From Kozakia baliensis (lineage in GTDB: Bacteria > Pseudomonadota > Alphaproteobacteria > Acetobacterales > Acetobacteraceae), in NCBI RefSeq assembly GCF_001787335.1, contig NZ_CP014674.1:1196501-1260500 (forward strand): a DNA stretch of 64,000 bases, read 5' to 3'. Every line of letters starts with the position of its first letter. Within the stretch, counting starts at the first letter, position 1. Shown one piece after another: positions 9,167 through 49,904 of the stretch. The notes beneath the pieces are model-generated. The model was not told the origin of the DNA and made no database searches. It saw only the letters and a list, made by a program, of their open reading frames with translations. The position numbers and the translations under genes are program-made.

Positions 9167-9215
9167 TTGGCGTCCCATAGGGGATTCGAACCCCTGTTGC
9201 CGCCGTGAGAGGGCG
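9167..9215. repeat. Left attachment repeat (tRNA-Glu 3' fragment)
   Basis: These 49 bp are identical to 49828-49876, the 3' part of the intact tRNA-Glu gene including the CCA end, T arm and part of the anticodon arm. Identity stops at 9215, where the rest of the tRNA is absent. This is the copy left by integrase-mediated recombination at a tRNA 3' end. Confidence 0.95.
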
Positions 9216-13673: not shown

Positions 13674-14027
13674 TCAAACTTCGTATTCGTATTGCGATCG
13701 TGGTTGAGAGCGGTTTTTATAATCCGCTTTGGATTCATCGAAATAAATAACCGTCCAGTCCGGCAATTCCACCTTGATCGCACGGGCGATTTCCAGACCG
13801 TCTCGGGCGAAGGCTTCCATATCGAACGGTGGGCTGTTTTCCTCGGGCGGAAAATCACAGTCATCATAGCGTCGCGCCCATGCGAGAAGCCGCTCTCGCA
13901 GTCCCTCGCTGACGGGGAGTTCGTCCGCATACGCCGGGCATCCGTCACGGTGCCAGACGCCTTCACAGCTGTATTCGCCCATGATGCGGACCCACTTTTC
14001 GTCTGCGAGGCAGGGTTCCTCAGTCAT
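13674..14027 (-). CDS. Unknown 117-residue acidic protein at the end of the hsd operon
   Basis: ATG 14027 overlaps the hsdS stop by 8 bp and starts MTEEPCLADEKWVRIMGEYS. Two paired motifs stand out: EGVWHRDGCPAYADELPVSE and DDCDFPPEENSPPFD, rich in acidic residues. I do not recognise a family. Its tight coupling to hsdS suggests a role with the restriction complex, for example modulation or immunity. The acidic composition would also fit a DNA mimic, but that is inference. Confidence 0.6.
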   Translation of the reverse strand: MTEEPCLADEKWVRIMGEYSCEGVWHRDGCPAYADELPVSEGLRERLLAWARRYDDCDFPPEENSPPFDMEAFARDGLEIARAIKVELPDWTVIYFDESKADYKNRSQPRSQYEYEV

Positions 14028-15378
14028 ATTTTCCTGTCTGCCGTTTTCTCGGAAGGGGTATGTCTTGAGTGGACTGTCTGCTGCGCCCTCTTTTCGGTTT
14101 CGGAGCCGCAGCACGTTCGGTCTGGATGCGGTCGAGCAATACACTGGCTGGTTCATCGTTTGGGTCCTGCGGGACGAGTTCGCCCCGGAAGGCTTTGGCG
14201 AGAAGGGAGGCTTCGAGGCGGTTGAGGAGGTTGAGGGCGCGTTGGGCTTCTGTTTCGAGGCGATCCGCACGGGAGAAGGCTTTTACGATCCGTGAAACGA
14301 TTATTCTCTGTTTTGAACGGCTCGGTATCTTAATTTGCAGATTTTTTAGCTGTTCGCTGTTTATGTTATTGACGCCGCTCGTCGATTTTGCCGCCGCATT
14401 TATCACGCTTCTAGCTTGAGGCGATCGCAGCCAATAATGAACAAAATAAGGAGTAATATCCTTATTTTTAAGGCGAATTCGTATTAAGTATCCAGCAAAA
14501 AGAAAGCCTGACACTTGTGTATCTGCAACGGCGGATTGACCAACCAGATCAACGCTTCCGTTGGATCTGACGATAAGCAAATCTCCATTACACAAAGATA
14601 GTTTTTTTATTTCTTTTTCGGTGAATGTTGAATGTTTCAAATCGGAAGTATCGATGTTGCCGCTGGCAATATTAGGAATTCTCAAGACCGGCGTAAGAGC
14701 TGGATTATAATCGCATTTTTGTGCTGTGCCGTAGCGGACATCTTCGGCTAGTTCACCCAATTTCAGCAACTCGCCATCACATGAAAATTCAGAATCGAGA
14801 AATTTAGAAAGCAATTGTTTCTGAAGTCTCTTCGCACGCTCCAACTCTGCCCGGGCGCGGGCGATGCGGGCGGTCAGGCTGTCCAGTTTGGCGACGATGC
14901 GGCGTTGTTCGGCGAGAGGGGGAAGTGGAACAACAAGGTGCGCTAATTTTGTCCCATTGAAATTCGGTTGCCCCGTGCCTTCTGCTCCGTCATTTATTTG
15001 CGTCCAGTATTGAGGTGACTGGAAGAACCATTTTGCATATGTAGGACACAAGAATTTTTCATTACACCTCACGCGTATTAAATAGGATGCAAATACGCTC
15101 CTGTATGGCAGAGTATCGAATAAATGCGACTTTCCAACAGTAGCGCCGGTTCTTGCGAAAACCAAATCTCCTTTATTTAATTCGTATTTCTCTATATCTT
15201 TAGGTAGTGTCACTAAATAAGGAACATTGTTCCATTCGACATCATTATCTTGGATGTCTGTTATTCTTATATACCTGATATCGCCCCGTTTTGCGTCCGA
15301 GGTAGATGTGCATCCATAATTAATAGAATGGCAGATGGCCTCTAATTGCGTCTCAACCCATCTCTGCGGCAACATCAC
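14020..15378 (-). CDS. hsdS: Type I restriction specificity subunit HsdS
   Basis: A 452-residue subunit with two target-recognition domains, each followed by a conserved helical spacer. The first TRD (residues about 5-160) ends in PPLAEQRRIVAKLDSLTARI; the second (about 200-370) ends in KQRIIVSRIVKAFSRADRLE. The tail after that (KAFRGELVPQDPNDEPA) is standard for HsdS. ATG overlaps the hsdM stop by four bases. The two TRDs are more AT-rich than the flanking subunits, as often seen where specificity domains are exchanged. Confidence 0.9.
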   Translation of the reverse strand: MMLPQRWVETQLEAICHSINYGCTSTSDAKRGDIRYIRITDIQDNDVEWNNVPYLVTLPKDIEKYELNKGDLVFARTGATVGKSHLFDTLPYRSVFASYLIRVRCNEKFLCPTYAKWFFQSPQYWTQINDGAEGTGQPNFNGTKLAHLVVPLPPLAEQRRIVAKLDSLTARIARARAELERAKRLQKQLLSKFLDSEFSCDGELLKLGELAEDVRYGTAQKCDYNPALTPVLRIPNIASGNIDTSDLKHSTFTEKEIKKLSLCNGDLLIVRSNGSVDLVGQSAVADTQVSGFLFAGYLIRIRLKNKDITPYFVHYWLRSPQARSVINAAAKSTSGVNNINSEQLKNLQIKIPSRSKQRIIVSRIVKAFSRADRLETEAQRALNLLNRLEASLLAKAFRGELVPQDPNDEPASVLLDRIQTERAAAPKPKRGRSRQSTQDIPLPRKRQTGKYD

Positions 15379-16856
15379 TCTGCTGCCTCCGCGCCAGTAT
15401 CTACCGCATCCCTCTCAAGCTCCGCCATCAGCGCCGCGATTTCTTCCAGAGCCGATTTTAGATGCCCCTCGATAGCCGCAGCGATATCCTCCGGCGTTTC
15501 CAGCCCGTCTTCGGCCTGATCGGTCGTGTCTTTCAGCCAGGTGATATCGAGGTTGTCGCCTCTTGTTGCGATGTCCTCGCGTGTGAAGCGACGGAAGCGG
15601 CCTTCCTCGCCCTGATCCTTGCGTTTTGCACGTCCATTACGGTCCGAGCCGAAGGCTTTGACGAAGTCATCCAGATCGCTGATGCGGAACGGGTTGGTCT
15701 TGCCGTAGGAGGGCGCGCCGGAGCGGGCATCGTAGATCCAGACGGCTTTCGTGGCGTCCTGAACCGGCGCCTCGTCTTCCGAACGGGTGAAGAACAGCAC
15801 GTTTGTTTTCACGCCCTGCGCGTAGAAGATGCCGACGGGCAGGCGCAAAATCGTGTGCAGGTCGCACCAGTTCATCAGCATTTTGCGCAGAGCCTTGCCG
15901 CGCCCGTCATCGAACAACACGTTATCCGGGATAATAACGGCGGCGCGGCCGCCCGGCTTCAGGGCGCGAATGCAGTGTTCCACGAAGGGAAGCTGGTAGG
16001 AGGACACGGCTGAGGTGATCGTCAGATCGTCGCGCGTCGGCGGCCCACCTGCGGGGCCGAACGGCGGATTGGTCAGGATCAGATCGACGTTTTTGAACTG
16101 CTGGCGCGCACCGGTCGGACTGAGCGTGTCGCCCAGCACGATATTGTTCGGGTCGATGCTGTGCAGATAAAGGTTCATCAGCAGCAGGCGATAGGTGTCA
16201 GGGACATTTTCGATGCCGCGTAAGGCCTCTTTGATCTGAAATTCCTTTTCTTTGTCCGTCTCCAGATCAAAGTAATCGTCAGTCTCGGCTTTCATGTGCA
16301 GATTGGCGGCGATCAGGAAGCCGCCGGTGCCGCAGGCCGGGTCTTCGATGATTTCGCCCGCTTCCGGCTGCATCAGACGGACCATGACGTCGATCAGGGC
16401 GCGGGGGGTGAAATACTGACCGGCGCCACGTTTCGTCTCTTCCGCCATACGCTGGAGCAGACCTTCATAGGCATCGCCGAAGGAATCACGCTCTTCCGTA
16501 AACCAGTGCAGTTCATCAATCGCGTTGATCAGTTTTCGCAGGTTCGCCGGATCGCGCACGATTGTCGCGGCGTTCTGGAAGATGGAGACGATGGCGCGGT
16601 CAGAAACCTTTTCTCCGTCCCCAAGGTCGATCAGGGCCTGCCGGTAGAGTTTGAGAACCTCGGTTTCATTGGCGCTTTTCAGGACTTTCCAGCGGTATTG
16701 CGCAGGAATACGCGTCTCGTCCTTTTGCTCGGACGCCATTTTCAGAAAGAGCAGATAGGTCAGTTCCGTGACGTATTGCTGGTAGGTGACGCCATCCTTG
16801 CGGAGCAGGGCGCAAAGGCGCCAGAGCTTGTTCACCAGATCGGCAGCGGGATTCAT
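15375..16856 (-). CDS. hsdM: Type I restriction-modification methyltransferase HsdM
   Basis: A 493-residue N6-adenine methyltransferase. HsdM N-terminal helical domain, then the SAM motif DPACGTGGF at residues 172-180 and the catalytic NPPF at 263-266. It modifies the site defined by HsdS and also forms part of the restriction complex. It lies 17 bp downstream of hsdR and overlaps hsdS. Motifs are intact. Confidence 0.93.
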   Translation of the reverse strand: MNPAADLVNKLWRLCALLRKDGVTYQQYVTELTYLLFLKMASEQKDETRIPAQYRWKVLKSANETEVLKLYRQALIDLGDGEKVSDRAIVSIFQNAATIVRDPANLRKLINAIDELHWFTEERDSFGDAYEGLLQRMAEETKRGAGQYFTPRALIDVMVRLMQPEAGEIIEDPACGTGGFLIAANLHMKAETDDYFDLETDKEKEFQIKEALRGIENVPDTYRLLLMNLYLHSIDPNNIVLGDTLSPTGARQQFKNVDLILTNPPFGPAGGPPTRDDLTITSAVSSYQLPFVEHCIRALKPGGRAAVIIPDNVLFDDGRGKALRKMLMNWCDLHTILRLPVGIFYAQGVKTNVLFFTRSEDEAPVQDATKAVWIYDARSGAPSYGKTNPFRISDLDDFVKAFGSDRNGRAKRKDQGEEGRFRRFTREDIATRGDNLDITWLKDTTDQAEDGLETPEDIAAAIEGHLKSALEEIAALMAELERDAVDTGAEAAE

Positions 16857-16873
16857 ACGTCAGACACTTCCTG

Positions 16874-19800
16874 TTACGCGGCTCGGCCTCCTTCTGATCC
16901 GTCGGACCAGATAGCGGCATTGAGATCCTTCAATACATCACCAAGGCCAGAATCAAAGGTCTGGTTGATCACGTCAAATCCGCCCTGCTGTGCAAACAGA
17001 GGATCGGACAGCAGAGCCGGGTCGCCCACGGGCTGGTCTTTCAGGGCACGACCGATACGGTTCAGCCATTGTGCCTGTCTGGGTGTCCAGTTCCGGGAGG
17101 CAAGGATCTTCTGCACGCCGTTTTCCACGCGGGTCGCGTAAGGCACCAATGGATCGCCAAGAGCTGCCTGCCGCACGAATCCGAGGATGTGGGCGGCGAT
17201 GTCGGCATTGCGTGCGGTGCCGTAGGCGCGGCGGAGACTGGCTTCGGAGAACCCATGTTCATCCAGTGCGGTGGCGAGGTCCTTGAGATCCTGCCGCGTG
17301 AGGTCGCGGGGCTTCTGTGTTGCCGCGATCAGGGAGGGAAGCGCGTTCATGTTGGCGCGGATCCAGGCCTCGAAACTTTCGATATAATCGGCGGGGCTGG
17401 CCTGTCTCCCGAAGGTATCGGTGATGGAGACGAGTTCGTCTTCATGCTCCGAGATATAGACGCCGCTCGGACGCGGGCGGTTCCCCGCGTGGTCGAGGAT
17501 GGTCGCGAGGGATGGATGCCGGGCGAACAGGTCCGCCGTCGCCGATGGTGGTGCGTCACGGAGCTGGTCTGGCAGGGCGGTCAGGGGGCCGAGCACGGCT
17601 TCAAGCGGTGCAGCGTATTCGGGGTCGATGTGACGGACGCGCTGACGCAGTTTGACGACAATCTGATCGCGGACCCAGGCACGGTCTTCATCCGCGGTGG
17701 CGCGGTTCAGATCCCCAAGAAGGGTCGCGAAACTAAGTGAGGGATTGACCACTACCGGCTTCATGTCGGTGACGGTCTGCAGGTTGGCGTAAATATCGAC
17801 CGCGTCGAAAATGCGGAAATATTCCTTGCCGATCTCGTCGCAGCGGCGTGTGGCGCGACCGATCATCTGGTCATACAGGATACGGCTGTTGACGCGGCGC
17901 ACAAAGACGAGATTGACGATAGAGGGGATGTCGATCCCCGTGGTCAGCAGATCGACGGTGACGACGTATTTCGGTCGGGGGTCACTGCGGAACACCTTGA
18001 TCCGTTCGTTCGGGCGATCGACCTCACCGGTGATTTTTTCGACCATGTCATGCGGCTGGGGACCATATTCTTCGGTTAACGCCTGACGCAGCGCCTTGAC
18101 CAGAATATCGGCGTGCGTATCGCGGGCCGCAAAGATAAGGGTCTTGCCGGGTTTGTCCGGCGGGCATTCCAGCGCGACGGCGGTGGCCACCGCGCGGTTA
18201 AAGGCTTCCGTGTGGACTTTTTTGTTGAACTCGGCGACCTCGAAATCGACTTCGTCTTCAAGATCGAAGAGATCGACCTGATTGGTTCGGGAGTCCACGA
18301 CGGCGACTTCCTCGCCTGCGTCAAAGTGAATGCCTGTCTGGCTCAGAGCGGTCGTGATGCGACGTGGCGGGCGATGGTCGATAAGATGCCCCGCGATAAC
18401 GGCCTGACGATAGCTGTAATGAAAGACCGGCGCGCCGAAAATCTCTCTTGTATGCAGGGCTGGCGTTGCCGTCAGGGCGATCTGGGTGGCGTCGAAATAA
18501 TCGAGGACGCGGCGATAGGCGGAGAGGTAATCGTCCAGATTGCGGAAACCCAGATCGTCATCCCGCAATTCGGCATCCAGCAGATAACCGCGATGCGCCT
18601 CATCGACGATGATGAGATCGTAGCTGCCCGGTGTCGGATGCTGGCCGTCCGGGTTGTCGAAAAGGCGACGGATCATGGCCTGTACGGTGGAAACCTGAAC
18701 CCGGTCCTCAAGGTCCGGGATCGCCTTGTCCATTCCGGCAATCGGAAAGATCTTATCGAATTTGAGCAGGCTGGCGGTTTCGGTATTGCTCATGGAATCC
18801 AGCGTCTGGATACCGAGGGCTTTCCGGTCGACCAGAAACAGGATGCGCCGGAACCGCTGGGCGCGGAGAAGCTCGTACATCAGCGCGATGGCAAGGCGGG
18901 TTTTGCCGGTTCCGGTCGCCATAGCGATGAGAAGGCGACGCTGCCCATTGGAGATGGCCGCCTCGACGGCATGAACCGCTTCAATCTGGTAATCACGCAA
19001 TCCCGTCACGCCGAGCTGGCGGTCCGTCTTCGCCAGAGCGGCGGGATCGAGTTTCTGTTCCAGCCGTGCAGTCAGATCACGCGGAGAAAACCAGTCCATC
19101 AGGGCGCGTGGTGGTTCGCCGGTGCGTGCGTCCCAGAACCAGATGCCGGAGAGGGTCTCCAGTCTCTTGAAATAGGGACGGCCGTTGGTCACGAATACGA
19201 ACGGAACACGAAACGCCGTGGCATCGTCTGATGGGGTGAAAGTCAGTTTTTGTTCGGGCGTCAGGATGATATCCTGACCGTAGCGTTTGGATTGTCCAAG
19301 GCGTCCAGCTACGTTCCTGATGGCGCGCTTGGCCTCAATGACGCCGACGGCCTGACCGTCAATAAAGAGCGCATAATCGACGCGACCGCTTTCGGTCGGC
19401 CATTCCGCAATAGCGATCGCCCGGCCCGCTTCGGGACGCGTGCCTCTGGCGTGGCGGAGGGTCCTGCTGTCCGCTTCCCAGCCTGCGGCACGAAGCTGCG
19501 CGTCGATGAGCACGCGCGTGGTGGCCTCGTCGATCTCCAGTTCCTGCGCTTTCTGATCGGCCATCTGCGCCAGATCCGAAAGTTCTGCCACAGGCGAGGC
19601 GACGGCCTGAGCCTGCACCTGGGCCAGAGTGCGTTCGGCTGTCTGACGTTCCCGGTCCGCCTCGGCGGCATAATTTTCCCAGAATGCGCGGTCTTCGGCT
19701 TCCCTGGCCGCGCATTCCTGGAGGGTTGCCTGCGCTGCGATGGCTTCCTGCGCGGCCATACGGGCCTTGGCTTCGGCGTCCGCGCTGTCGGAGACGGCCT

Positions 19801-20281
19801 TGCGCAGGGCTTCGATTTCCTCACGCAGCGCCGGTGTGGCGTCTTCCGGAAGCTGTGGCGGGACGAAAGGTCCGGCGCGGAAATTGGGGGCCTGATTGTA
19901 AACCTGATGGAACCAGATACCGATCAGCCGGGCCATTTTAAGCGCTTCAAGCGCTTCAGAGCGTGTACCTTCGTTTTCATGGACGGCTGTATTGCCGACG
20001 CGCGTGATATGAAAAAACAGGTCGGCAATCTGACGCTGCAGTAATCCGCGTCTCTGAAGGGCTCGAAGGACGTCGTCAAAGGTAGCGCGCGTATCGGGCA
20101 GTTCACCATGCCTGGCGGCGATATCTTTGGCCATCAGTTCCGCGAACTGCCGGGTCTTGATGAGAGATGTCGGCGGGTCAACAAGGAAGAAATGTTCGGC
20201 GAGTTGACCCAGTTTGGTCAGTTCTGGTGCGTCTTTTGCCAGAAAGGCAAAATTACCGGTCTGTTCCGCCAACTCCTTCAT
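16874..20281 (-). CDS. hsdR: Type I restriction endonuclease HsdR
   Basis: A 1135-residue motor subunit. Residues about 20-140 form a DUF4145-like N-terminal domain and 150-250 an Ala/Glu-rich coiled coil. The nuclease core has D302 (VDYALFIDG) and E316-A-K318. The SF2 helicase follows: Walker A ATGTGKT at 455-461, DEAH at 560-563, then TATPA and the motif VI region (DQMIGRATRR). It cleaves unmodified DNA after translocation. It is first in the hsdR-hsdM-hsdS-unknown operon. All key residues seen are intact. Confidence 0.93.
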   Translation of the reverse strand: MKELAEQTGNFAFLAKDAPELTKLGQLAEHFFLVDPPTSLIKTRQFAELMAKDIAARHGELPDTRATFDDVLRALQRRGLLQRQIADLFFHITRVGNTAVHENEGTRSEALEALKMARLIGIWFHQVYNQAPNFRAGPFVPPQLPEDATPALREEIEALRKAVSDSADAEAKARMAAQEAIAAQATLQECAAREAEDRAFWENYAAEADRERQTAERTLAQVQAQAVASPVAELSDLAQMADQKAQELEIDEATTRVLIDAQLRAAGWEADSRTLRHARGTRPEAGRAIAIAEWPTESGRVDYALFIDGQAVGVIEAKRAIRNVAGRLGQSKRYGQDIILTPEQKLTFTPSDDATAFRVPFVFVTNGRPYFKRLETLSGIWFWDARTGEPPRALMDWFSPRDLTARLEQKLDPAALAKTDRQLGVTGLRDYQIEAVHAVEAAISNGQRRLLIAMATGTGKTRLAIALMYELLRAQRFRRILFLVDRKALGIQTLDSMSNTETASLLKFDKIFPIAGMDKAIPDLEDRVQVSTVQAMIRRLFDNPDGQHPTPGSYDLIIVDEAHRGYLLDAELRDDDLGFRNLDDYLSAYRRVLDYFDATQIALTATPALHTREIFGAPVFHYSYRQAVIAGHLIDHRPPRRITTALSQTGIHFDAGEEVAVVDSRTNQVDLFDLEDEVDFEVAEFNKKVHTEAFNRAVATAVALECPPDKPGKTLIFAARDTHADILVKALRQALTEEYGPQPHDMVEKITGEVDRPNERIKVFRSDPRPKYVVTVDLLTTGIDIPSIVNLVFVRRVNSRILYDQMIGRATRRCDEIGKEYFRIFDAVDIYANLQTVTDMKPVVVNPSLSFATLLGDLNRATADEDRAWVRDQIVVKLRQRVRHIDPEYAAPLEAVLGPLTALPDQLRDAPPSATADLFARHPSLATILDHAGNRPRPSGVYISEHEDELVSITDTFGRQASPADYIESFEAWIRANMNALPSLIAATQKPRDLTRQDLKDLATALDEHGFSEASLRRAYGTARNADIAAHILGFVRQAALGDPLVPYATRVENGVQKILASRNWTPRQAQWLNRIGRALKDQPVGDPALLSDPLFAQQGGFDVINQTFDSGLGDVLKDLNAAIWSDGSEGGRAA

Positions 20282-20634
20282 CCGTCAGACCTTTGCCGCG
20301 ACCCCATCTGCAAAAATAATCTCTGTCATAACGTGGATATAGTCAAACCAGGCATTGGATGATGGTGACTGCATAATCCGACATGTTGCCGTCCTCGGAG
20401 AGGAAAGGCACCTGTTCACTCAGTGCCCGCACCATCAGAGATGATCAAAGGGAGTCACGGTGATGTATGGGCAGGCCCATCAGGGCTTTCAGGTGCTCTG
20501 CAGAAGGGTAAAACCTTCCACAGAAATGGCGACCGTGATCTCGTTGGGATCAGTATCCAGAGTGCCGATCTGACTCTTGATAGCAATCTCTTAGAAAGAG
20601 ACAACACTGAACAGGCAACTGTGTTTACGCGACG
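20282..20634. other. Intergenic region upstream of hsdR
   Basis: About 350 bp with no recognised gene. The part nearest 20282 presumably carries the hsd promoter. I see no strong hairpin or repeat. Confidence 0.3.
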
Positions 20635-21042
20635 CTTTCTGGCCGATCGCTTTTAGCCCCATTCCGACGAGTTGCTGCCGTCTTTGCCGGGCTGGCGGAT
20701 GATCTGCCTATGCGTCCCATCTGTGCCACCATCCAGCTTCGGGAACCAATAGATGTCGCGGATCAGACCTTCGACCAGAACATCGGCATCAAAGCGGGGC
20801 CAGTGACGGCCATTAGCCAGCGGAGTGATTTCAATCTCAGCCAGATCATTCAGAGAAGTGCCGTGCAAATCCCGTAACAGATCCACGGGCAAACTCATCT
20901 CAACGCCATTGGAAAGCGGTGATTGAAATTGGCAAAGCCCACCTGATACGAGCAGGCGGCTCGTAAGGCAGGCGCGTTCCATAGAGCAACGGTTCCTCAT
21001 GCGGTGTCTGCAAGGTTTATCCGCGTTCGTCGCTTCCTTCAT
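20635..21042 (-). pseudogene. DUF2442 protein, frameshifted
   Basis: ATG 21042 starts MKEATNADKP. The DUF2442 core follows (GGLCQFQSPLSNGVEMSLPV, then DLAEIEITPLANGRHWPRFD, ADVLVEGLI). Near 20755 the open frame switches to an unrelated tail ending at 20653. The expected family tail (GSRSWMVAQMGRIGRSSASP, AKTAATRRNGAKSDRP) is in the next frame, running to a stop at 20635. A single indel has therefore disabled or altered the C-terminus. DUF2442 proteins are often paired with DUF4160, as here; their function is not established. Confidence 0.65.
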
Positions 21043-21043
21043 G

Positions 21044-21145
21044 TCACACTTCCCCATCCGGGCTTATGACGTGAACGTGCATCGGTAAATGATCTGCCGT
21101 GTAAATCATGACACGAAATCCATTAATGCGCAGAAGTGTTGGCAT
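21044..21145 (-). pseudogene. DUF4160 protein, truncated to 33 residues
   Basis: MPTLLRINGFRVMIYTADHL then PMHVHVISPDGEV matches the start of DUF4160 proteins, including the HVHV segment. These are normally about 80 residues. A TGA follows DGEV and the DUF2442 gene begins two bases beyond, so the C-terminal half is gone. The pair looks like a decayed toxin-antitoxin-like unit. Confidence 0.6.
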
Positions 21146-21317
21146 GATTTACTATATCATTGTCGCTTGTTTTTTAATCAGAACCGTGCAGCCGAAAATG
21201 AGGAGGCCCGTCTTTTGCTTTCGATCCGTAATCGCCACCAGGCTCGCCAGACAAAGATCAAAAACAGCCAGAAACCGCTCACCATTCAGACACACGCAAA
21301 AAACCTCCCACGCTCTG

Positions 21318-21865
21318 AAACTACGTCCCAACAGCGAATCATCATCTGAAATCCCAAAACCGCTCAGGCACGTTCGACACCGCGTTCGATTTCTGCCGAC
21401 GTTCGCCATCATCGTAAAAACTGCACGCCGCTAAGAACCTACGGCTCAATCGCGAATCATCATGTGAAATCCCGAAACCTCTCAGGGACGTACAACATCA
21501 CGTCAGAAACCTGCTGTGTTCCTGAACGCGAGCCCTGAAAATTCGGACGCGTCGAATCTACGGCTCAATCGCGAATCATCATGTGAAATTCAAAAAACGC
21601 TCAGGGACGTACAACATCACGCCGAAAACCTGACGTGTTCCTGAACGCTACCCCCCAAAACTTCGCACGCGTCGAATCTACGGCCCGATCGCGAATCATC
21701 ATGTAAAATCCAAAAAATGCTCAGTCACGTTCAACATCACGCCAAAAACCTGCTGTGTTCCTGAACGTAGGGCCAGAAACTTCGGACGCGTTGAATCTAC
21801 GGTCAAATCCCGAATCATCATGTGAAATCCCGAAAATGCTCAGTCACGTTCAACATCGCGCCGGG
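21318..21865. repeat. Tandem repeat array, about 119-bp unit, four full or near-full copies plus a partial one
   Basis: Units begin near 21318 (diverged), 21436, 21555, 21675 and 21794 (partial), giving lengths of about 118, 119, 120 and 119 bp. Shared blocks are CGAATCATCATGTGAAAT, a CTCAGGGACGTACAACATCA/CTCAGTCACGTTCAACATCA block, CCTGCTGTGTTCCTGAACG, and TTCGGACGCGTCGAATCTAC, which contains the palindrome GACGCGTC. The period is not a multiple of three and no long frame crosses the array, so it is non-coding. Copies differ by substitutions rather than being recent duplicates. The unit is too long for CRISPR. Possible roles are partition/origin iterons, protein-binding arrays or structured RNAs. 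Confidence 0.85.
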
Positions 21866-22223
21866 AATTCGAATCCCATCAGAAACAGACAGAAAACCGC
21901 CCTACATTCTGAAAAGCACCAGAAACCGCTATATTCCTGAACGTGTGACAGGTTTCTACGGAAAACCCATCAGACCCGATTCCGGGATAACCACCCCGCA
22001 GAAAACCGCCATATTTCAGGCCCAGAAGCCGTCTGGCCCAACCGCCTGACAGAGACCGCAAGAGGGCCCGGAGATGCCTCACACGGGCCGTAAAAACCGC
22101 AGAAAACCGACACTCCCAGTCATAATAATAGGTCTGGATGAACGAGGATCAGAAGCCAGACCACTAAGACACGTTCAAAAGCTTCACGTTATGAGTGGGA
22201 AACTATCAAAAAGGCACGATACT
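21866..22223. repeat. Degenerate continuation of the repeat array
   Basis: No gene is recognised. A shorter motif, CAGAAAACCGC or CAGAAACCGCT, recurs near 21888, 21921, 22000 and 22098; one more copy lies before the array near 21270. TTCCTGAACGTG near 21934 echoes the array unit. The stretch links the regular array to the hairpin at 22224 and appears to be non-coding. Confidence 0.5.
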
Positions 22224-22252
22224 GGGTTTTTGCCGCAAAGCAGCAAAAACCC
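22224..22252 (+). terminator. Strong stem-loop after the repeat array
   Basis: GGGTTTTTGC and GCAAAAACCC form a perfect 10-bp stem around a 9-nt loop. It could end a transcript reading through the array; there is no clear T tract after it. Confidence 0.5.
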
Positions 22253-22360
22253 TTTCAAAACAGTCCCTTAAAACCGTTTCATTTTCGTGCCCGGCCGGGG
22301 GCGTCCGCATCACGCTGTGACGCGTCATCTGAACCGGCACGCGCCCCCGTTCCGGGGTCG

Positions 22361-22527
22361 CGCCGCCCTGAGGGCGGCGGTGCAGAACTCAACCTCTCTC
22401 GCTCTCTCATGATGAAAAATGATCAGAAGGGTTCTGTCGTTTTTTTGGCTTTGCAAGGGAGGGCCGGGCTGGTCCTCACCCCAGAGGGCTCACGCAGAGC
22501 GTGAGCTGGAATGGTCGCCGTGCGACC
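22361..22527 (+). promoter_or_regulatory. Structured leader of the four-gene cassette
   Basis: Three perfect hairpins lie in series: CGCCGCCC/GGGCGGCG (22361-22379), GCTCACGC/GCGTGAGC (22488-22506) and GGTCGC/GCGACC (22513-22527). Pyrimidine repeats made of CTCTCTCG/CTCTCTC flank them (about 22393-22407 and 22540-22562). The arrangement resembles an attenuator or a structured 5' leader just before the first cassette gene. Confidence 0.5.
22409..22504 (+). CDS. Possible 31-residue leader peptide
   Basis: ATG 22409 opens MMKNDQKGSVVFLALQGRAG and ends at TGA 22502-22504, inside the second hairpin of the leader. The composition (hydrophobic centre, basic end) is protein-like. There is no clear ribosome site, only the pyrimidine repeat, so translation is uncertain. 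Confidence 0.25.
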   Translation: MMKNDQKGSVVFLALQGRAGLVLTPEGSRRA

Positions 22528-22591
22528 AGAGCGAGGGTTATCTCTCTCGTTCTCTCTCTCTGGGGCTTCTTTCTTTCTGGAGCCTTCCGCA

Positions 22592-22798
22592 ATGACCAGA
22601 TTAGTCACCGAACTCGACACGCTTTTTGACACCCACGCCGTCCTGGCAGGCGTTGTTCTTCCCACCCTGCGCGATGTGATCGCACAGCCGGGAGCCTTTC
22701 CCAGCGACACGCGGCTTGAGGGTACGCTCATCGTTCTGGCGCAGACGGTCCGTTCCCTGAACCGAGAACTGACGGACCGCGTAGGAGACCGGACATGA
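22592..22798 (+). CDS. Cassette gene 1, 68-residue unknown protein
   Basis: Starts TRLVTELDTLFDTHAVLAGV and looks fully helical, with a mixed hydrophobic first half and a charged C-terminus (LNRELTDRVGDRT). ATG 22592 has GGAG about ten bases upstream; an in-frame ATG at 22511 would add 27 residues encoded by leader hairpin sequence. Its TGA overlaps the next start (ATGA), so it is coupled to gene 2. I do not recognise a family. The size would fit a small subunit or an antitoxin-like partner, but this is inference. Confidence 0.65.
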   Translation: MTRLVTELDTLFDTHAVLAGVVLPTLRDVIAQPGAFPSDTRLEGTLIVLAQTVRSLNRELTDRVGDRT

Positions 22799-23388
22799 CG
22801 TCCTTCCGGCGCACGGACCTTGCTGTCCGCCTGATGGGCCTCGTCTCCTCCCGTGATCGCCCGGATGCTCCGGTCCGGCCCACCGGGAGCGCCGTCTGTC
22901 TGTACGATCTTGTTCTGTCCCAGGCTGAACCCTTCGTCGTAGCCGAGCGGCTCGGCCTGTGGTTTCCCTGTCTGTCGGCCGATCAGGACCCGGCAAACAG
23001 ACGGGCCCTGTGGGACCAGATCCTGCGGCAGCCCATGCCGGATTTAACGGGTGCAGGAGAGGACGATACAGACAGCATCCTCTCTTCTCCTGCCCTTCTT
23101 CTTCCGGATATCGTTCTGCTTCTTGGGGAACGGGAGACGGCCTGGCTCGGTCCATGCTTAACGAAAACAGCGCAGGTCATGACCCTGGACGATCTCATGC
23201 GCCGGCTTGCGCCAGAACTGGTGGGAACTGGGAACACGACCGAAGCCCTTCTGGCCCGGTTTGCAGCGGAAGACCGGTCGGGTGTTCACCCGGCTTCCGA
23301 CCTCGTCCGCATCCATGCAGCAGCCCGGCTGATCGAAGCGCTCTGGACCGCTCAGGTCCCTGGGAGCGGCCTCACGTATCGCCTGTAA
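22795..23388 (+). CDS. Cassette gene 2, 197-residue unknown protein
   Basis: Begins TSFRRTDLAVRLMGLVSSRD and has a GSAVCLYDLVLSQAEPFVVA segment, an acidic linker (GAGEDDTDS) and a helical C-terminal half (LDDLMRRLAPELVG, then DLVRIHAAARLIEALWTAQV). No known motif was recognised. Gene 4 ends its core in a similar way (LRLHCAAALLETLLEWE), so genes 2 and 4 may be distantly related. It overlaps gene 1 by four bases and sits 67 bp before gene 3. Confidence 0.7.
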   Translation: MTSFRRTDLAVRLMGLVSSRDRPDAPVRPTGSAVCLYDLVLSQAEPFVVAERLGLWFPCLSADQDPANRRALWDQILRQPMPDLTGAGEDDTDSILSSPALLLPDIVLLLGERETAWLGPCLTKTAQVMTLDDLMRRLAPELVGTGNTTEALLARFAAEDRSGVHPASDLVRIHAAARLIEALWTAQVPGSGLTYRL

Positions 23389-23455
23389 TACCTGACACCG
23401 ACAGGCCAGACGGCGTCGGCCTTTCATTTTCTCCCCACAAAAATCTGGATGCTTC

Positions 23456-24103
23456 ATGCTTCTCACAAAATCCCCGGTCGCTGCGGCAACCGTGTCCCGT
23501 CACGCGCGCTCATTTTTCGAGCCCACGGACGACGATCTCGATCTATATCGCGACATCAGTTTCAGACTGAAGGCACAGCCGCCCTCAAGTCTGTTCCGCT
23601 ACCTCCAGCCGGCGGGACGGCATCTCATGCAACTCGGCGATGAAGGACCCGGCGTCTGGGCCTGTCTTCTGCGCAAGGTCGAGCAGCGTTGGCCGGATCT
23701 GCCCAGCCATGGCTCCGTTGCCTCTGACGGAACCCGGCTGAATTCAGCCCCGGAGCGGATTGCCTACGAGGCCGTCAAACCCATCGTTCCGCAGGATGTT
23801 GCGCTGGATCTGGAAATTGCTCTCGACCCGTCTCAGAAGCCACGGTTCTATTCAGATTTCGCCATCCGTTTCGGGTCACGTGTGATGCATATCGAGATCG
23901 TAGGTGCCTGCGGTGCGGACCGTGTGACGCGCAATGACTGGGAAGCGCGTCTGCTGGCGCAGTTCGACCGGCGTCTGGAGGTCTACCGGCAGAAGTGCCT
24001 TACGCCCGAGATCTGGTATCTCAACGATCTTCTTGAACCCGCGCAGTTACAGAAGCGTTTCCTCGCCCTTGTGGCGCAGCTGCGCTCGGGAGGCAGATCA
24101 TGA
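23456..24103 (+). CDS. Cassette gene 3, nuclease-fold-like protein of 215 residues
   Basis: The C-terminal two thirds resemble a PD-(D/E)XK arrangement: a helix with glutamates (APERIAYEAVKPI), then FYSDFAIRFGSRVMHIEIVG, giving D in a strand and E-x-I in the next. After that come a helical WEARLLAQFDRRLEVYRQK segment and a final strand (TPEIWYLND). The lysine of the canonical ExK is replaced, so it is either a diverged active site or a non-catalytic fold. Stop overlaps the gene 4 start by ATGA. Assignment is pattern-based inference, not a recognised family. Confidence 0.65.
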   Translation: MLLTKSPVAAATVSRHARSFFEPTDDDLDLYRDISFRLKAQPPSSLFRYLQPAGRHLMQLGDEGPGVWACLLRKVEQRWPDLPSHGSVASDGTRLNSAPERIAYEAVKPIVPQDVALDLEIALDPSQKPRFYSDFAIRFGSRVMHIEIVGACGADRVTRNDWEARLLAQFDRRLEVYRQKCLTPEIWYLNDLLEPAQLQKRFLALVAQLRSGGRS

Positions 24104-24747
24104 CCCAAGGTCCGATCCGGCTGCCGCGTTGCCCTATCACGCGCCTGAAACTGCTCGATATTACGCCGGATCAGAAAGGAGCGCCCTATGCGGGCGCTCC
24201 CGTCACGCTGCTGCAGAGGGACGGCTTTGTCGAAGGGCGCAGCCTTCTCTGGCTGGGCGACCCCCGGCGCTCCTCGGGTCGCCTGGAGGAAAGTCTCGAC
24301 GAGCACGGGCAGCCTGCCCTGAGCATCAGTGATCCCCTGTTCCGGGCCCTGATGCCAGTGGATGCCCCGCGGCCTTTTGTTCTGGCGGGATTTCACATGT
24401 CCTTTCTGCGCCACGTGCTGGGTGGGCCGCAGGATCGGCCGCCCCATGATCTCTGCCTGTACCGGCTTGCGCGACAGCGGGCGTCCTGGTTGCGACCGTG
24501 TGGTTTGCAAGAAACCGCTATCGAACTGCGGACAGACCTGATAGCGGAACTGACACTGGACGGGCCTTTTCTGCGCCTGCACTGCGCAGCCGCGCTGCTT
24601 GAGACACTGCTGGAATGGGAGCCGCTCAACCGGCTGCTCGTATTGTCAGGAAATGTTGTTTCTCCACCGTCTGGCGAGGAGGAACCTTTCGGTCAGGCCG
24701 CAGAGTGGAGCTGTCTGCCGCAAGGTCCTGCCATGCTGGAAGACTGA
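24100..24747 (+). CDS. Cassette gene 4, 215-residue unknown protein
   Basis: Starts TQGPIRLPRCPITRLKLLDI. Notable segments are APVTLLQRDGFVEGRSLLWL, FVLAGFHMSFLRHVLGG and a helical DLIAELTLDGPFLRLHCAAA. There are no obvious membrane spans or catalytic motifs. It is translationally coupled to gene 3, so the two probably work together. The helical segment resembles the C-terminal helix of gene 2, suggesting duplicated building blocks. Confidence 0.7.
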   Translation: MTQGPIRLPRCPITRLKLLDITPDQKGAPYAGAPVTLLQRDGFVEGRSLLWLGDPRRSSGRLEESLDEHGQPALSISDPLFRALMPVDAPRPFVLAGFHMSFLRHVLGGPQDRPPHDLCLYRLARQRASWLRPCGLQETAIELRTDLIAELTLDGPFLRLHCAAALLETLLEWEPLNRLLVLSGNVVSPPSGEEEPFGQAAEWSCLPQGPAMLED

Positions 24748-37429: not shown

Positions 37430-40400
37430 TTATCCGGCTTGCCGCTTCTCGATATTGTTCCCGAGTGCTCTTGCAAGGGTCTCGGCCACAACTGCCTGAT
37501 CGTGGCGTTCGCGAATGAAGCGTCGCCCCGCATGGTCCATTCTGGCGTGCGTCGTCGAGTCATCGTGCAAACTGACGATCAGCGCAGCCAGCGCTTCGGC
37601 TGTGTCACCGGTCGCATCTGCGAGAGCGGCAGGCAGTTCCATTCCTTCGGTCGCGACATGCGTTGTTACACACGGGACGCCAGCGGCCAGACTGTCCAGA
37701 ACCTTGCCTTTGATGCCGGCCCCAAAGCGGAGCGGGGCAATGCTGAGACGGACTTTGTCGAACAGAGCCCCGCAGTCACGAACATGGCCGACTGCCTCGA
37801 CCCCAGGCGCTGCGAGCCGACGAACCCGTTCCGGCATGTCCGCCCCCGCGATAACACACCCGATGTCCGGTCGCTGCCGCCGGACGAGCGGCATGATCTC
37901 TTCAGTGAGCCAGATCGCGGCGTCGATGTTTGGCGCGTGAGAGAAATTACCAAGGAACAGAACTCCGCTCCGTTTTTCAAATGACGGTACCTGTTTCCGG
38001 ACCGCGACAGCCCAGGGAACGACGTGGACTTCCACGCCCGGCACATCGCGCCGGAGGATCGCGGCCTCCTCGGTTGAGTGCGTCAGAACGACGTCAGCCT
38101 GACGGGCGGCGGCGTATTCTGCATCCCGGACCTGCCGGGCCTTCGCCATCAGTTCCGGCCGTTCCTCGACTGCTTCCTGTCGCGCAATTCTCATATGGTG
38201 CAGGTCGGCGACGGCATAGATCGTTCGCGCTTTGGACTGATACTGCCGGACGAGCGGCAGATAGCGCATCGCAATGTTCTGGCGGTGCAGGTAGACCAGA
38301 TCGAAACTCTGGGCCTGTCGCCGCAGAAGATCTTCGACCGAGTTGTAAAAAGGTAATGCGCAGACATCGATATCGTCCATGACCTGAGCTGATGCGCTAC
38401 CCATTTCATCAGCGGCGACGAACGACACGTCATAGCCGAGCGTCTGAAGGGCAAACATATGCGACAGAATGGCGCACGAGCCGGCGTCACGCCGGGCGTC
38501 CGGCATGCGGGCATCAACGACCAGTGCTCTCAAAGCACGGCGCGCCGGAAGCACCAGACCCCGACGGGAGCGCTCACGCTGTGTCGTGTTCCGGATGCGT
38601 CCCGACTGATGGTCAGCATGGCTCTGTTTCAGGCGCTCCATCTGTGCGGCCAGAAAAGACAGGACCCGATCGTAACCTTTCGCGTCCTGAACGGAGCTGG
38701 TTGCCCTGCGAACAGCCTCTTCAAAATCCGGATCAAACTGGTCGGCCGCCTCCACAATAACTGGCTGGCCCAGCAGGGCTCCGGTGCGCTCGTTCCGCAC
38801 TTCAATGATCTGGCGCGTCAGAGGTGAGAGGGGTGGGACAAAGAGAAGATCGAACCCACACCGTTCCGGCCCGGCTCCTGCATCGGCCACATCCGGGCGG
38901 CGGCCGTTGGCAACGCTCCGTTCTGCAATCGTCCCGTTCACCACGACCTGTATGGCGACTGACTCTTCGGGCCGCGCAGGATCAGAAATCCAGCCACAGA
39001 TCCGGTCGCGGGAGGCTCTGTCGATATAGCCGCGCATCGTGGCTGACGATGCTGGCACGGCTGACTGTGTAATGAGCCGCTCACCAGCGGCCTGCTGGTC
39101 CAGAATCCATGGCGTGTGGCCAAGAAAGTTCCGTGACATGCCGGGATCATCTGCCTGCGCGATTTCGATGACATGCCTCATGTGTGGGGTGAAACCACCC
39201 GGCACGACGAAACAGAAACCGCAGTCGGGGCCGACATCCGGACGCGGGCAATCGGCCACGATTTCGGCAATGGCGATTCCATTATCAAACAGGGACAGAC
39301 GCACCGGTTCCGGAGAGTGCGGGTTTCTGGCCCAGCCCCTGATGACGGTACGCGTCACCTCATCGAGATAGCCTTCGATAGATCTTGCTGACATGGAAAC
39401 TGGCGCCATTCCGGCTTCAGCATTCAGGCGCGTCCGGATGGCTTCAAGAACGGGCCCTTCCTCGATCCGGGGTGCACAATAGACTGCCGGAAGTGGCGCT
39501 GCATCCGGATAGAGTTTTTTGAACTCGGCAGCATTGTGAAACATGTTCCGGCTGTCATCATCTACGAAGCTCTCCGAAGGTGCCCCTTCAGCCAGAAGGA
39601 TATCGTGCGTCTTCAGTTCAATGTGGAAATAGGTGATTTCGTCGATCCGCTCAGCCTGAAGAATGCTGACCCCGTTGATAAGGCAGACCGCTGGTATGAG
39701 CACGCCCTCCAGAGCCATCGCGTGCAACGGGGAAACGGACAGGTCACGTCGCGGCAGGCCGTCACCCAGCGCTCCCGCCCGGATGACGATCGGCAGGACG
39801 TTCTGGTTGCCCCTGACAAAAGGTCCGGAATACGAGCGGTGTCCGATCCAGCGGATGGGGCGCAGCGAGCCCGAGGCCGTCCGTACCCGATCGCCGATGG
39901 CGAGATCTTCCACAGCGATCTCGCCCCGTTCGGTCGCGATCAACGTGCCGCGGCAGAAGCAGGGCGTGCCGTCGTCGACCGTCAGCAGAACCTGACTGCC
40001 TTCTCCGTCCGAAGGCGCGAGGCCGTATGTGACGGTATCTCCGGCCAGTTCAGACAGAAGGCTGTCATAGGTGGTCTGACCGTAATAGTCTGAGTCGACG
40101 CCGCTCTCTGCCAGACCTTCCAGTTTTGCGAGGCCCGCAGGGTCCAGAACATAGGTGCCCTCGTCGGAGGCGTCATATTCTGCGTCGGAAAGCTCGATCT
40201 GTGCGCCGCCGGAAACCTGCAGATTCTGGATATCAGCCCGGACTGGAACTTCCAGCATCGCAGCCGACTGGGCGATGACGGTCTGCGCGGCATCCACATC
40301 CGCAGAAGCGCCGGCTTCAAGCGTCACTGTGCCAGCCGAGCCGTAAATGCCTAGCCGGCCGCCGGACTGCACATCGACTTCTGTGGCGTACGAACCGCCT

Positions 40401-40498: not shown

Positions 40499-40538
40499 TT
40501 TTCTTCCTGATCGGCGGGAGTGAAATTCGGGGGATTTC

Positions 40539-40793
40539 CTAAAGTCGTCCAACGTCGCGGCACAGCGCGAGAAGCTGAGCCAGCCTCTGGTCGACGAGAG
40601 AGCCAAGCGCCACCAGTCCCTCGAGCGTGCGACCCTCTTCGCTGTCGCCTGGCACGATACTGAGCTGCTGACGCAGAATTCGATGTTCCAGTGTGAGAAC
40701 CCGTGAAAGACCGAGAAGGCCTGCATAGATTTCTTCGACGCCCGGAGCGGGTGTGTCGGAACTGATGATCGCCTTGCTCTCGTCCATCTTCAT
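40539..40793 (-). CDS. Small helical protein upstream of the Hint gene
   Basis: About 84 residues (KMDESKAIISSDTPAPGVEE, IYAGLLGLSRVLTLEHRILR). Likely helical, no motif recognised. It lies 40 bp upstream of the Hint-glycosyltransferase gene on the same strand, so the two may form an operon. The exact start (40793 or 40796, or further upstream) is uncertain. Confidence 0.55.
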   Translation of the reverse strand: MKMDESKAIISSDTPAPGVEEIYAGLLGLSRVLTLEHRILRQQLSIVPGDSEEGRTLEGLVALGSLVDQRLAQLLALCRDVGRL

Positions 40794-48230: not shown

Positions 48231-48599
48231 ATGGTGAGTGACCGGAAAGGATCACGTCTGACACTGGAAAGTCGCGGGTTGCTTCGCTACCCGGCCGCCG
48301 CGGAATATATTGGTCTTGCCGAGGGAACTCTCCGTAATCAGGTCGATAAGCTGGGGATACGCTCTGTCAAAATCGGTCGGGCCCGATGTTTTCGTATTGT
48401 GGACCTCGACGATTTTATCGAGCGGAAACTCTGCGAGACTGAACTGCAGCTTCAGAGAAGAAGGAGGCGCAGTCGGGGGGAGTACCTGCTGCCGGATCGC
48501 AGTCCGGATATCAGGCCCGTGATTACCGGCCTGATCGCTCTTTTCCGGCTCAGGCTCCCCCGGGCAGCGGGTTCCTTCATTTTTTACCCGGTCCGTTAA
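48231..48599 (+). CDS. Excisionase-like helix-turn-helix protein
   Basis: About 122 residues; ATG 48231 follows CAGGAA. A MerR/Xis-type winged HTH (LLRYPAAAEYIGLAEGTLRN, then SVKIGRARCFRIVDLDDFIE) is followed by an Arg-rich stretch (LQRRRRRSRGEYLL). Excisionases direct integrase to excision. It converges with the integrase and its 3' end overlaps the integrase 3' end by about 23 bp. Confidence 0.7.
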   Translation: MVSDRKGSRLTLESRGLLRYPAAAEYIGLAEGTLRNQVDKLGIRSVKIGRARCFRIVDLDDFIERKLCETELQLQRRRRRSRGEYLLPDRSPDIRPVITGLIALFRLRLPRAAGSFIFYPVR

Positions 48600-49686
48600 T
48601 CGCCTCATAGGCCAGCGCCATGGCGGCGAGGTCTTCCGTGTGGGGCTGATAGTAACGATCAAGGGATCTGATATCCTTATGGCCCGTTACGCGGCGGAGT
48701 TCGAGCGGGTTCGTATAGATCCGTGCGAGACGGCTTGTTGCTTCGTGACGCAGATCATGAAACGTGAGGTCCCGAAGGCCAGCTTTCTTCGTCATCCGCC
48801 CGAACCGAACGGAGAAAGCATCTTTGCTACCAATATCAAAGACGAGATCTCCGGGTCGCGCCGATGTGCGTTGTGCCTGAAGGGTCCGAAGCAGGCGGGC
48901 GGCGCCGGGTGTCAGGGGGCGGATTTCCGGGCCGCGCTCGGCAGCGCGATGCATTGTTTTCGTCCTGGCAAAGGAGAGGGAGTGCCGGTCGAAATCGACG
49001 TCGCGCCAACGCAGCGTCAGGGCTTCTTCCCGTCGCGTTCCCTGTTCGATGGCGAAACGCACGAACGCGACATCATCGGGCCAGGGTGACTTAGCCATGA
49101 CCTCCAGAAGACGTTTGTATTCGTCGCCAACGAGGCGGCGGTTGCGTTTTTTATCCGCGCCTGCAGGGCGTTTGACCGCCGTGGCGGCGGCCGGGTTCTT
49201 CGCAAAAGGCACATCCCATTCCGCGATGGCGTGCTGACAGATCGCGGCGAGCAGGTTGAGGCGTTTGACGACTGTAGCGCCGCTGTATTTCCCGGCCTGC
49301 CGGTCCCGGAAGCCTCGGACTGCTGTCGCGGTCAGATCGACCAGTGCCAGCTGCGCGATCTCGTCCTGTAGGATGGCGGGGATGTGACCCTTGCGGTCAT
49401 TGTCCCGCGCCTGCATCTCCTCACGCACATAGCGGTCGACCAGTTCATGGACGGTCTGGCGTTCCAGCGGACGCGTATCCTGAAACTGGCCGAGTTCGAG
49501 TTTGGCAGATGTCGTGTCCAGCCACCGTCGGGCCAGTCTGGCTGACGAAAAGGTCTGATGGATTCTTTCGCCGCCTGCGATTCGCTTGCGGGCCCGATAC
49601 TGGCCCTTGCCGCGATACTCCACGCCTGCAGGAAGAGCGCGGCCTGTCGCAGGATCGATTTTGGCAGAAGTGATTCGGTCTTTCAT
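48577..49686 (-). CDS. int: Island tyrosine integrase
   Basis: About 369 residues. The catalytic residues are seen in GTRREEALTLRWRDVD (Arg), TFHDLRHEATSRLARI (His-x-x-Arg) and VTGHKDIRSLDRYYQPH (His and the nucleophilic Tyr). An N-terminal core-binding SAM-like domain (VHELVDRYVREEMQARDN) precedes. ATG 49686 is preferred; earlier in-frame starts would read through the GGGCCC sites. Its start faces the tRNA-Glu attachment site 142 bp away. Intact and presumably functional. Confidence 0.92.
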   Translation of the reverse strand: MKDRITSAKIDPATGRALPAGVEYRGKGQYRARKRIAGGERIHQTFSSARLARRWLDTTSAKLELGQFQDTRPLERQTVHELVDRYVREEMQARDNDRKGHIPAILQDEIAQLALVDLTATAVRGFRDRQAGKYSGATVVKRLNLLAAICQHAIAEWDVPFAKNPAAATAVKRPAGADKKRNRRLVGDEYKRLLEVMAKSPWPDDVAFVRFAIEQGTRREEALTLRWRDVDFDRHSLSFARTKTMHRAAERGPEIRPLTPGAARLLRTLQAQRTSARPGDLVFDIGSKDAFSVRFGRMTKKAGLRDLTFHDLRHEATSRLARIYTNPLELRRVTGHKDIRSLDRYYQPHTEDLAAMALAYEAINGPGKK

Positions 49687-49698
49687 GGTGAGCCTCGT

Positions 49699-49781
49699 CT
49701 GGGCCCGGCATAGCCTTTTCATGGGCCCATTGGACCATGTGCTTATCGTCTTTTTTGGCAGTGGGCCCAGGGTGGGCCCAA
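49699..49781. promoter_or_regulatory. Putative integrase arm-type sites, right end
   Basis: TGGGCCCA occurs at 49722-49729, 49762-49769 and 49773-49780, plus TGGGCCCG near 49700. The pair at 49762/49773 has the same 11-bp spacing and orientation as the pair at 9319/9330. The sites lie between the attachment repeat and the integrase start. Confidence 0.55.
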
Positions 49782-49827
49782 AAACGGTCAATCGTTTCGC
49801 TCTATGACTGCTAAGTCACTGGAAAGA

Positions 49828-49876
49828 TTGGCGTCCCATAGGGGATTCGAACCCCTGTTGCCGCCGTGAGAGGGCG
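49828..49876. repeat. Right attachment repeat
   Basis: Identical over 49 bp to 9167-9215. It lies within the intact tRNA-Glu gene, from the CCA end to the anticodon stem, and regenerates the gene after integration. Confidence 0.95.
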
Positions 49877-49904
49877 GTGTCCTAGGCCTCTAGACGAATG
49901 GGAC
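49829..49904 (-). tRNA. tRNA-Glu(CTC)
   Basis: Acceptor stem GTCCCAT/ATGGGAC, D arm, anticodon loop CTCTCAC with anticodon CTC, T arm AGGGGTTCGAATCCCCT, discriminator G and an encoded CCA. Fully intact. It is the insertion site of the island and its 3' end points into the island. Confidence 0.95.

Follow-up and report, generated by a model that had tools for sequence, protein, structure and literature searches.

A 64,000-nucleotide stretch of Kozakia baliensis contig NZ_CP014674.1 (G000:C1:1196501-1260500 of a 3.5 Mb genome; hereafter the window) contains a non-coding tandem repeat array, a conserved hairpin and four small genes, here called g1 to g4. We tentatively read this locus as a small module that acetic acid bacteria exchange horizontally, perhaps a defence or toxin system; its non-coding part would work with g3 and g1 and, in some subtypes, with g2 and g4. 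The array of about 119-base-pair (bp) units that had been predicted upstream of the genes from the sequence alone was confirmed as five in-register copies at 21296-21862, and the four coupled open reading frames (ORFs) of 68, 197, 215 and 215 amino acids (aa) lie where they had been placed, with no credible family assignment by Pfam, PHROGs or PADLOC. The genes g1/g2 and g3/g4 overlap by 4 bp each, and g2 and g3 are separated by 67 bp. The parts of the module are as follows:

21232..22386, + strand: exchangeable non-coding block (array, spacer, hairpin and start of the leader).
21296..21862, + strand: tandem array, units of about 119 bp, five in-register copies.
21863..22212, + strand: array-hairpin spacer, 350 bp, A/C-rich on the + strand.
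22213..22252, + strand: conserved hairpin element, with core GGCACGATA at 22213-22221 and stem-loop at 22224-22252.
22253..22591, + strand: leader from the hairpin to g1, 84-90% identical in L018, L031, L033, L034 and L035.
22592..22798, + strand: g1, small protein of 68 aa, 85-92% identical in close relatives, helical by eye only.
22795..23388, + strand: g2, 197 aa, no known family, present in some subtypes.
23456..24103, + strand: g3, 215 aa, predicted Vsr/EDxHD-like PD-(D/E)XK fold, E100, D134 and E147 invariant.
24100..24747, + strand: g4, 215 aa, predicted RNase H-like / DEDDh-exonuclease-like fold.

That the non-coding array belongs with the genes, as the original prediction had proposed, is borne out by a comparison of 68 g3 loci. 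The five duplicates L032 and L036-L039 are not counted in this set, nor does it include the places in G417, G421 and G189 or the small fragments G029:C6, G029:C14 and G166:C1:1829777; the near-identical loci L071/L072 and L085/L106 (the latter two copies in one genome) were kept, and g3 is only partial in L030 and L115. Tandem Repeats Finder (TRF), with periods of at least 40, returned ten arrays from the 987,506 bp of these loci, the window's included, and all ten lie within 1.3 kb upstream of a hairpin, itself upstream of a g3 cassette, with the array ending 268-377 bp from the hairpin. This pre-hairpin zone amounts to 55,025 bp, or 5.6% of the searched sequence, and TRF found no array outside it in the 987,506 bp; control segments totalling 400 kb from six genomes gave one array. 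The binomial probability of this placement is 3e-13, or 3e-8 if six unit families are counted, in a test that was devised after the pattern had been noticed and on loci that share kinship.

Within the window, the array copies start at 21296, 21414, 21533, 21653 and 21772 (a spacing of 118-120 bp), and TRF reports 21435-21862 with a period of 119, 3.6 copies, 85% matches and a score of 569, the highest of 14 rows for the window. A CRISPR array was ruled out, the window repeating whole 118-120-bp units, not short repeats with unique spacers. An initial reading of the array as unique to the window genome, drawn from the first 23 other loci, was overturned by L073, which is from another genus and has a 120-bp array in the same place that is about 71-76% like the window array, and by L094, from a third genus, with a window-type array at 95.6% identity. 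A DNA search for the array across 299 family genomes, on which that reading had also rested, returned only the window's copy, and G177 and G210, the genomes of the array's relatives, are outside the listed family sample. Elsewhere the units measure 58 bp (L021), 59 bp (L082), 73/145 bp (L083), 71-134 bp (L099), 90/120 bp (L097) and 130 bp (L084 and L108), and the units of these distant arrays share only short local matches with the window, L073 and L094 arrays. Overall, the units form six families with no real similarity to one another. Copy number is four in L084 versus seven in L108, and five in L082 versus one in L095. The spacers of different types align over little beyond the hairpin in most pairs, and the distance to the hairpin is therefore kept without the sequence being kept. 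Measured along the coding strand, the arrays have a negative GC skew in 10/10 cases and a positive AT skew in 8/10; in the array-hairpin spacers, AT skew is positive in 10/10 and GC skew negative in 9/10.

Because 58 of the 68 loci have no TRF array, the array is an optional or variable part of the module. Such loci, which the original prediction had itself named as refuting it, include six close relatives (L018, L031, L033, L034, L035 and L070) with the hairpin and all four genes, g2 being interrupted in L035; initially they seemed to refute the array. By BLAST, L064, L080, L095 and L096 retain one to a few units of their own type, and contig ends truncate L064 and L096. In the six close relatives, short motifs (TGACGCGTCA / ATGCGTCAT) seen by eye take the place of the long array before the hairpin, and these loci adjoin an integrase-like gene; GTCATGAC motifs, also seen by eye, precede the hairpin in many loci of the CTA type described below.

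The leader upstream of g1 had been described as long and hairpin-rich. It is conserved (84-90% in five close relatives), and the structured part of the region is the hairpin at 22224-22252 (z -3.3 versus shuffles). In L018, L031, L033, L034 and L035, nucleotide similarity to the window begins at the hairpin core at 22213 (22206 in L035) and continues through g4. Across types the core has the consensus GGCACG(A/C)TA. The ATA type comprises 17 distinct sequences in which GGCACGATA is followed by a stem-loop, and only the GGC of this core is independently invariant, since the search pattern demanded ACGATA plus part of the stem. A looser scan allowing one mismatch placed the exact core in 25 loci, with GGCACGCTA as the main variant; this variant defines the CTA type, in which a longer stem is followed by five to eight T, resembling intrinsic terminators. 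A relaxed rule, requiring [GA]GCACG[AC]TA and a fold of less than -10 kcal/mol no farther than 5.2 kb upstream, found a hairpin in 46/68 loci, a few of them perhaps by chance.

In the ATA alignment, where 83.7% of cells are paired despite bulged sequences out of register in the outer stem, 17 stem cells changed on both sides versus 5.7 when shuffled, with a covariation score of 0.244 versus 0.089. The CTA alignment gave 13 cells versus 4.5 and a score of 0.092 versus 0.024, and four pairs with both-sided change versus 1.6; for each type, 0/500 shuffles reached the observed cell count or score. One hairpin alignment does not include L114 (+ strand), a partial copy. This covariation supports selection on a putative RNA structure of the hairpin. 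In the CTA and L084 groups, the hairpin is also where conservation by column is highest.

The hairpin is also nearly restricted to g3 loci. Among 289 genomes, the ATA pattern occurs at 24 sites, three of them away from g3, and the CTA pattern at 21 sites, four of them away from g3 (45 sites and seven exceptions for both together), and a reversed-pattern control gave 0 sites; in an earlier family sample, 4/4 hairpin sites were at g3 loci. The patterns were derived from the very g3 loci at which they were counted, and the informative number is therefore that of the few sites elsewhere. Only one genome with a hairpin site, G233, had no g3 match in the searches. As for the exceptions, the hairpin of L186 is followed by g1 close to the end of a contig, the sequences of L187 and L188 resemble Gluconobacter leaders in decay (in L187 there is also a piece of g3 on the opposite strand), and L189-L192 have no recognised g1 or g3 downstream. 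The hairpin-g1 gap is about 3 kb in L094 (hairpin at -4037, g1 at -936) and in L186, versus 0.4 kb in the window, and in L186 the gap holds an open frame of 840 codons. The ATA pattern in its loose form matches eight viral contigs, in none of which the part examined contains g3, and the CTA pattern had no matches in viral contigs. A literature search for the core motif as letters found nothing.

The non-coding block and the genes have not travelled as one. Block 21232-22386 is 91.3% identical over 1166 bp to its counterpart in L094, from another genus, where the g3 proteins share 59.1%, and we therefore conclude that array and genes are exchanged separately. L083 and L082 have g3 proteins 78.6% identical and no array in common. 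The g3 genes of L036, L037 and L038 are chimeric, the first half being like the paralogue L017 and the second half like the window, so recombination also takes place within genes.

The most constant parts of the module are g3, the hairpin and a small g1-like protein, and g3 and the hairpin stay together in differing surroundings. A g4 gene is present in ATA loci, in relaxase-linked loci and in L022 and L081, with no match in CTA loci; the range of g2 is narrower still. Since g2 and g4 are confined to some subtypes, the smallest form is the hairpin, a g1-like ORF and g3. A g1 profile, built largely from the same loci that it scored, reached E 3e-10 or better in 23/25 ATA loci, with E 0.15 in L097 and no match in L021. 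The place of g1 varies: it precedes g2 in the window type, follows g4 in the L083 type, and lies between g4 and g3 in the L084 type. Beyond these, 27 further loci have an ORF at about -200 with a weak g1-profile score (E 0.055-2.0), L115 and L116 score 4e-7 and 9e-4, and the profile found no g1 directly upstream at the relaxase-linked chromosomal loci; in CTA loci, weak profile matches fall at the same place. Judged by eye, the small g1-like proteins appear to form one family, with identities across subtypes of 14-37%. In L107, L108 and L109, two different g1-like proteins are present per locus, one before and one after g3.

The nuclease-like pattern earlier suspected in g3 is matched by its predicted fold, which has a Vsr/EDxHD-like nuclease core. 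The g3 model, with a predicted local distance difference test (pLDDT) score of 88.4, compares with I-Bth0305I (3r3p) at Z 10.0, root-mean-square deviation (rmsd) 3.2 and 98 aligned residues, with NGO0050 at Z 9.5, rmsd 2.7 and 92 aligned, and with a mitoribosomal protein at Z 9.3, rmsd 3.4 and 105 aligned; Foldseek alone was weak (best E 0.086). All 21 aligned members have E100, D134 and E147. The likeness to Vsr and EDxHD endonucleases (I-Bth0305I, NGO0050) and to FASTKD4 is one of fold; no sequence similarity to them was found, and g3, with its conserved E, D and E, lacks the PD-(D/E)XK lysine and has an N-terminal helical part of its own. NCBIfam searches with the 21 members gave a best E of 0.17, and a profile search of the PDB a best E of 0.95. 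EDxHD is treated as a family in the available part of PMC3943268, and the available text of PMC11879112 compares FASTKD4, a Vsr-like RNA-binding protein, with Vsr and I-Bth0305I, its authors suggesting that FASTKD4 is without nuclease activity.

For g4, the fold is predicted to be like that of DEDDh exonucleases (ExoX, ExoI, 3'hExo, TREX1), the comparison with ExoX giving Z 11.4, rmsd 3.2 and 139 aligned residues from a model with a pLDDT of only 72.5; Foldseek gave a best E of 0.016, and a profile search of the PDB returned nothing up to E 10. The DEDDh family is marked by the motifs DxE and HNxxFD. At these positions g4 has LDITP and HMSFL, with D20 kept in 16/21 rows and the remainder of both motifs not seen by eye, so that, unlike DEDDh exonucleases, g4 does not retain the four catalytic acids and has apparently lost them. 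Family searches with the window genes gave best E values of 0.02 in Pfam and 0.056 in PHROGs (both g2) and nothing in PADLOC, and Pfam scans of all members reached 0.01 for g1, 0.022 for g3 and 0.16 for g4, none convincing.

Of known systems, the locus most closely recalls type III toxin-antitoxin loci (ToxIN, CptIN, TenpIN), which in the available part of PMC8860590, the source of the criteria applied here, likewise have an array, then a hairpin, then a nuclease-fold gene. Tandem repeats upstream of the gene in the toxin position were found in the window and nine other loci of the 68. The criteria further name a hairpin terminator between repeats and toxin gene, a promoter ahead of the repeats and a repeat RNA that neutralises the toxin. 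The units here, at 58-145 bp, are unlike those of ToxIN, which are tens of bases long. The locus further differs from type III loci in its Vsr-like g3, its extra proteins, the conserved core before the hairpin and the optional array, and perhaps in its promoter, no sigma-70-like match having been found. Since no ToxN/AbiQ, CptN or TenpN-type match for g3 was found in Pfam, NCBIfam or PADLOC, we do not file the locus as a type III member. Similar to VIPR, as described in the available text of PMC13142463, the locus combines tandem repeats and a structured constant tail with few genes, and some VIPR types there have nucleases in defence islands. VIPR was rejected on repeat code and layout: the same text gives a YNNGG tandem code with 9-16 repeats, and the longest GGYNN run in the ten array loci, on both strands, is three. 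VIPR also has a RAMP (RRM) protein; among the matches listed, neither g3 nor g4, the two proteins modelled, is RAMP-like. A literature search of titles and abstract openings found no such system.

We consider that the logic of the locus is best read, by analogy, as that of a type III toxin-antitoxin locus built from unrelated parts, pairing a compact nuclease module with an RNA (or DNA) element. The array would be transcribed toward the genes, the RNA ending at or near the hairpin; the GGCACG(A/C)TA flank and stem would form a handle bound by cassette proteins, and the repeat part would restrain or direct g3. The nuclease activity of g3 would then be released when the RNA is lost or a matching invader enters. 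A transcript that passes through the array and ends near the hairpin would agree with the fixed layout, with the strand bias and with the terminator-like hairpins of the CTA type. We regard as doubtful, though worth stating, the more specific possibility of an RNA-coupled or RNA-guided nuclease immunity or toxin class, in which a swappable array RNA with a 3' hairpin handle would be loaded by the Vsr-fold protein and g1, and the array type, exchanged independently of the proteins, would set specificity; larger versions would add the inactivated exonuclease-fold protein as an RNA loader.

Several observations weigh against an RNA-coupled module. Besides the lateness of the spacing test, the scarcity of arrays among the loci and the origin of the hairpin patterns, these concern the RNA itself: for three window units the fold is no better than that of shuffles (z -0.6, 0.9 and 0.3), no sigma-70-like promoter was found in 20600-22800 (shuffles give a mean of 1.2, and the promoters of this group may differ), the window hairpin has no clear T-run, and TRF found no array at the CTA loci whose hairpins look most like terminators. 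The relaxed rule found no hairpin in 22/68 loci, among them the relaxase-linked L017, L020, L068, L069, L071 and L072 and several loci on short contigs. In the covariation analysis, ATA pairs with both-sided change number 3 versus 3.0 shuffled, and 10/13 of the changed CTA cells come from one pair beside the loop; in the window group, the hairpin is no more conserved than its surroundings. In g3, V149 (E147-x-V149) occupies the position of the PD-(D/E)XK lysine. Selection on RNA structure in the repeat unit, originally argued as an alternative to protein binding, is unsupported in the window because its units fold like shuffles; of seven units folded, only that of L084 shows a clear excess (z -3.1), the others giving -1.7 (L083 type), 0.6 (L073) and 1.5 (L082). 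The original overall interpretation is partly supported.

The same unstructured window units, together with terminator-like CTA hairpins and the clusters of short palindromic sites that several loci without a long array show, by eye, ahead of the hairpin (TGACGCGTCA/ATGCGTCAT in those of Gluconobacter, GTCATGAC in many of the CTA type), would suit array and hairpin as DNA control elements, that is, binding sites and a terminator or operator that keep an autoregulated cassette silent, the RNA being inert. We think this rather unlikely, as dissimilar units of 58-145 bp would be unusual operators for one regulator family and strand composition bias is not expected of binding sites. That 58/68 loci have no TRF array, and that copy number varies between close loci, would also be seen if the array were a functionless, slippage-prone stretch whose hairpin distance reflects descent, with only the hairpin and genes mattering; the presence of six unit families at a similar hairpin distance, and of no array elsewhere in the 987,506 bp, makes this quite improbable in our view. 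It is more improbable still that the islands use the hairpin and repeats for mobility, as a transfer or replication origin or a site of recombination, with g1-g4 as passengers or accessory transfer genes. Integrase-like genes upstream in several Gluconobacter loci, a MobF-type relaxase beside one subtype (by eye) and a g3 copy on a mobilizable MOBF plasmid speak for such a role, but the relaxase-linked loci are those without a found hairpin, and hairpin and g3 occur together in different surroundings.

A protein search found g3 in 6/150 family genomes, and a profile search of the order sample in 33/299 genomes, all listed as the same family and with up to seven places per genome. The class sample gave 1/279, the window's own genome only, and two genus searches gave 12/26 and 19/49; a scan of named genomes, sensitive to close relatives only, found nine g3 loci, all in Gluconobacter or Acetobacter. 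A phage or virus origin was considered and rejected: against 50,697 phage records, g3 had no match at E 0.01 and the array and leader DNA had zero matches, and g3 peptide patterns were not found in viral contigs. Plasmids gave no DNA match, and a plasmid protein search gave two records with g3, one nearly full length; L140 is a g3 copy on a plasmid of Gluconobacter oxydans that is classed as mobilizable (MOBF). The window's genome has a second, diverged g2-g3-g4 copy, L017 (G000:C1:2600395-2601036), with no recognised hairpin, which adjoins genes identified by eye as a MobF-type relaxase and a serine recombinase.

The mobile island in which the module had been placed is present, bounded by a 49-bp exact direct repeat (9167-9215 / 49828-49876) equal to the tRNA-Glu end, with an integrase and HsdR/S/M inside:

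14020..20281, - strand: type I restriction-modification genes HsdS, HsdM and HsdR, upstream context outside the module.
48577..49791, - strand: island integrase, beside tRNA-Glu at 49829-49904, bounding the island together with the 49-bp repeats.

The Hsd region (15457-20350) is 92% identical to DNA beside the L073 cassette. The island (9167-49876) also encodes a primase-like replicase, SRAP, DUF4365, DUF4238 and a HipA-like gene, and at 37430-40726 of the window a large protein combines Hint and glycosyltransferase domains; Hint-domain proteins also occur near the plasmid copy L140. A survey of neighbours within 8 kb of g3 loci gave 188 protein clusters, of which 74 representatives were scanned; the matches listed include type I restriction-modification proteins, at least four proteins with a MADS-type match and at least six integrase-family proteins. 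Integrase-like genes (by eye) lie directly upstream in several Gluconobacter loci. This content fits defence islands and is no proof of function. In L097, a Cas3-like helicase gene (by eye) follows the cassette at 1963-4678 bases past the g3 start, and in L101 a 1122-residue frame, NACHT-like by eye, follows the minimal hairpin-g1-g3 form at 935-4301 bases past the g3 start.

If the array RNA does control or direct the nuclease, this would be an RNA-coupled system whose building blocks are a Vsr fold and an exonuclease fold that has apparently lost its activity, and whose RNA module is exchanged in nature. The repeat-RNA logic known from type III toxin-antitoxin loci would then have a second design, unrelated to the first. 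The putative handle (the hairpin), the variable part (the array) and the smallest version (hairpin, g1 and g3) are small enough for direct testing. Should the elements instead act as DNA, the hairpin, being a marker of one gene family in several genera, is still of help in finding and dating these islands among industrial acetic acid bacteria.

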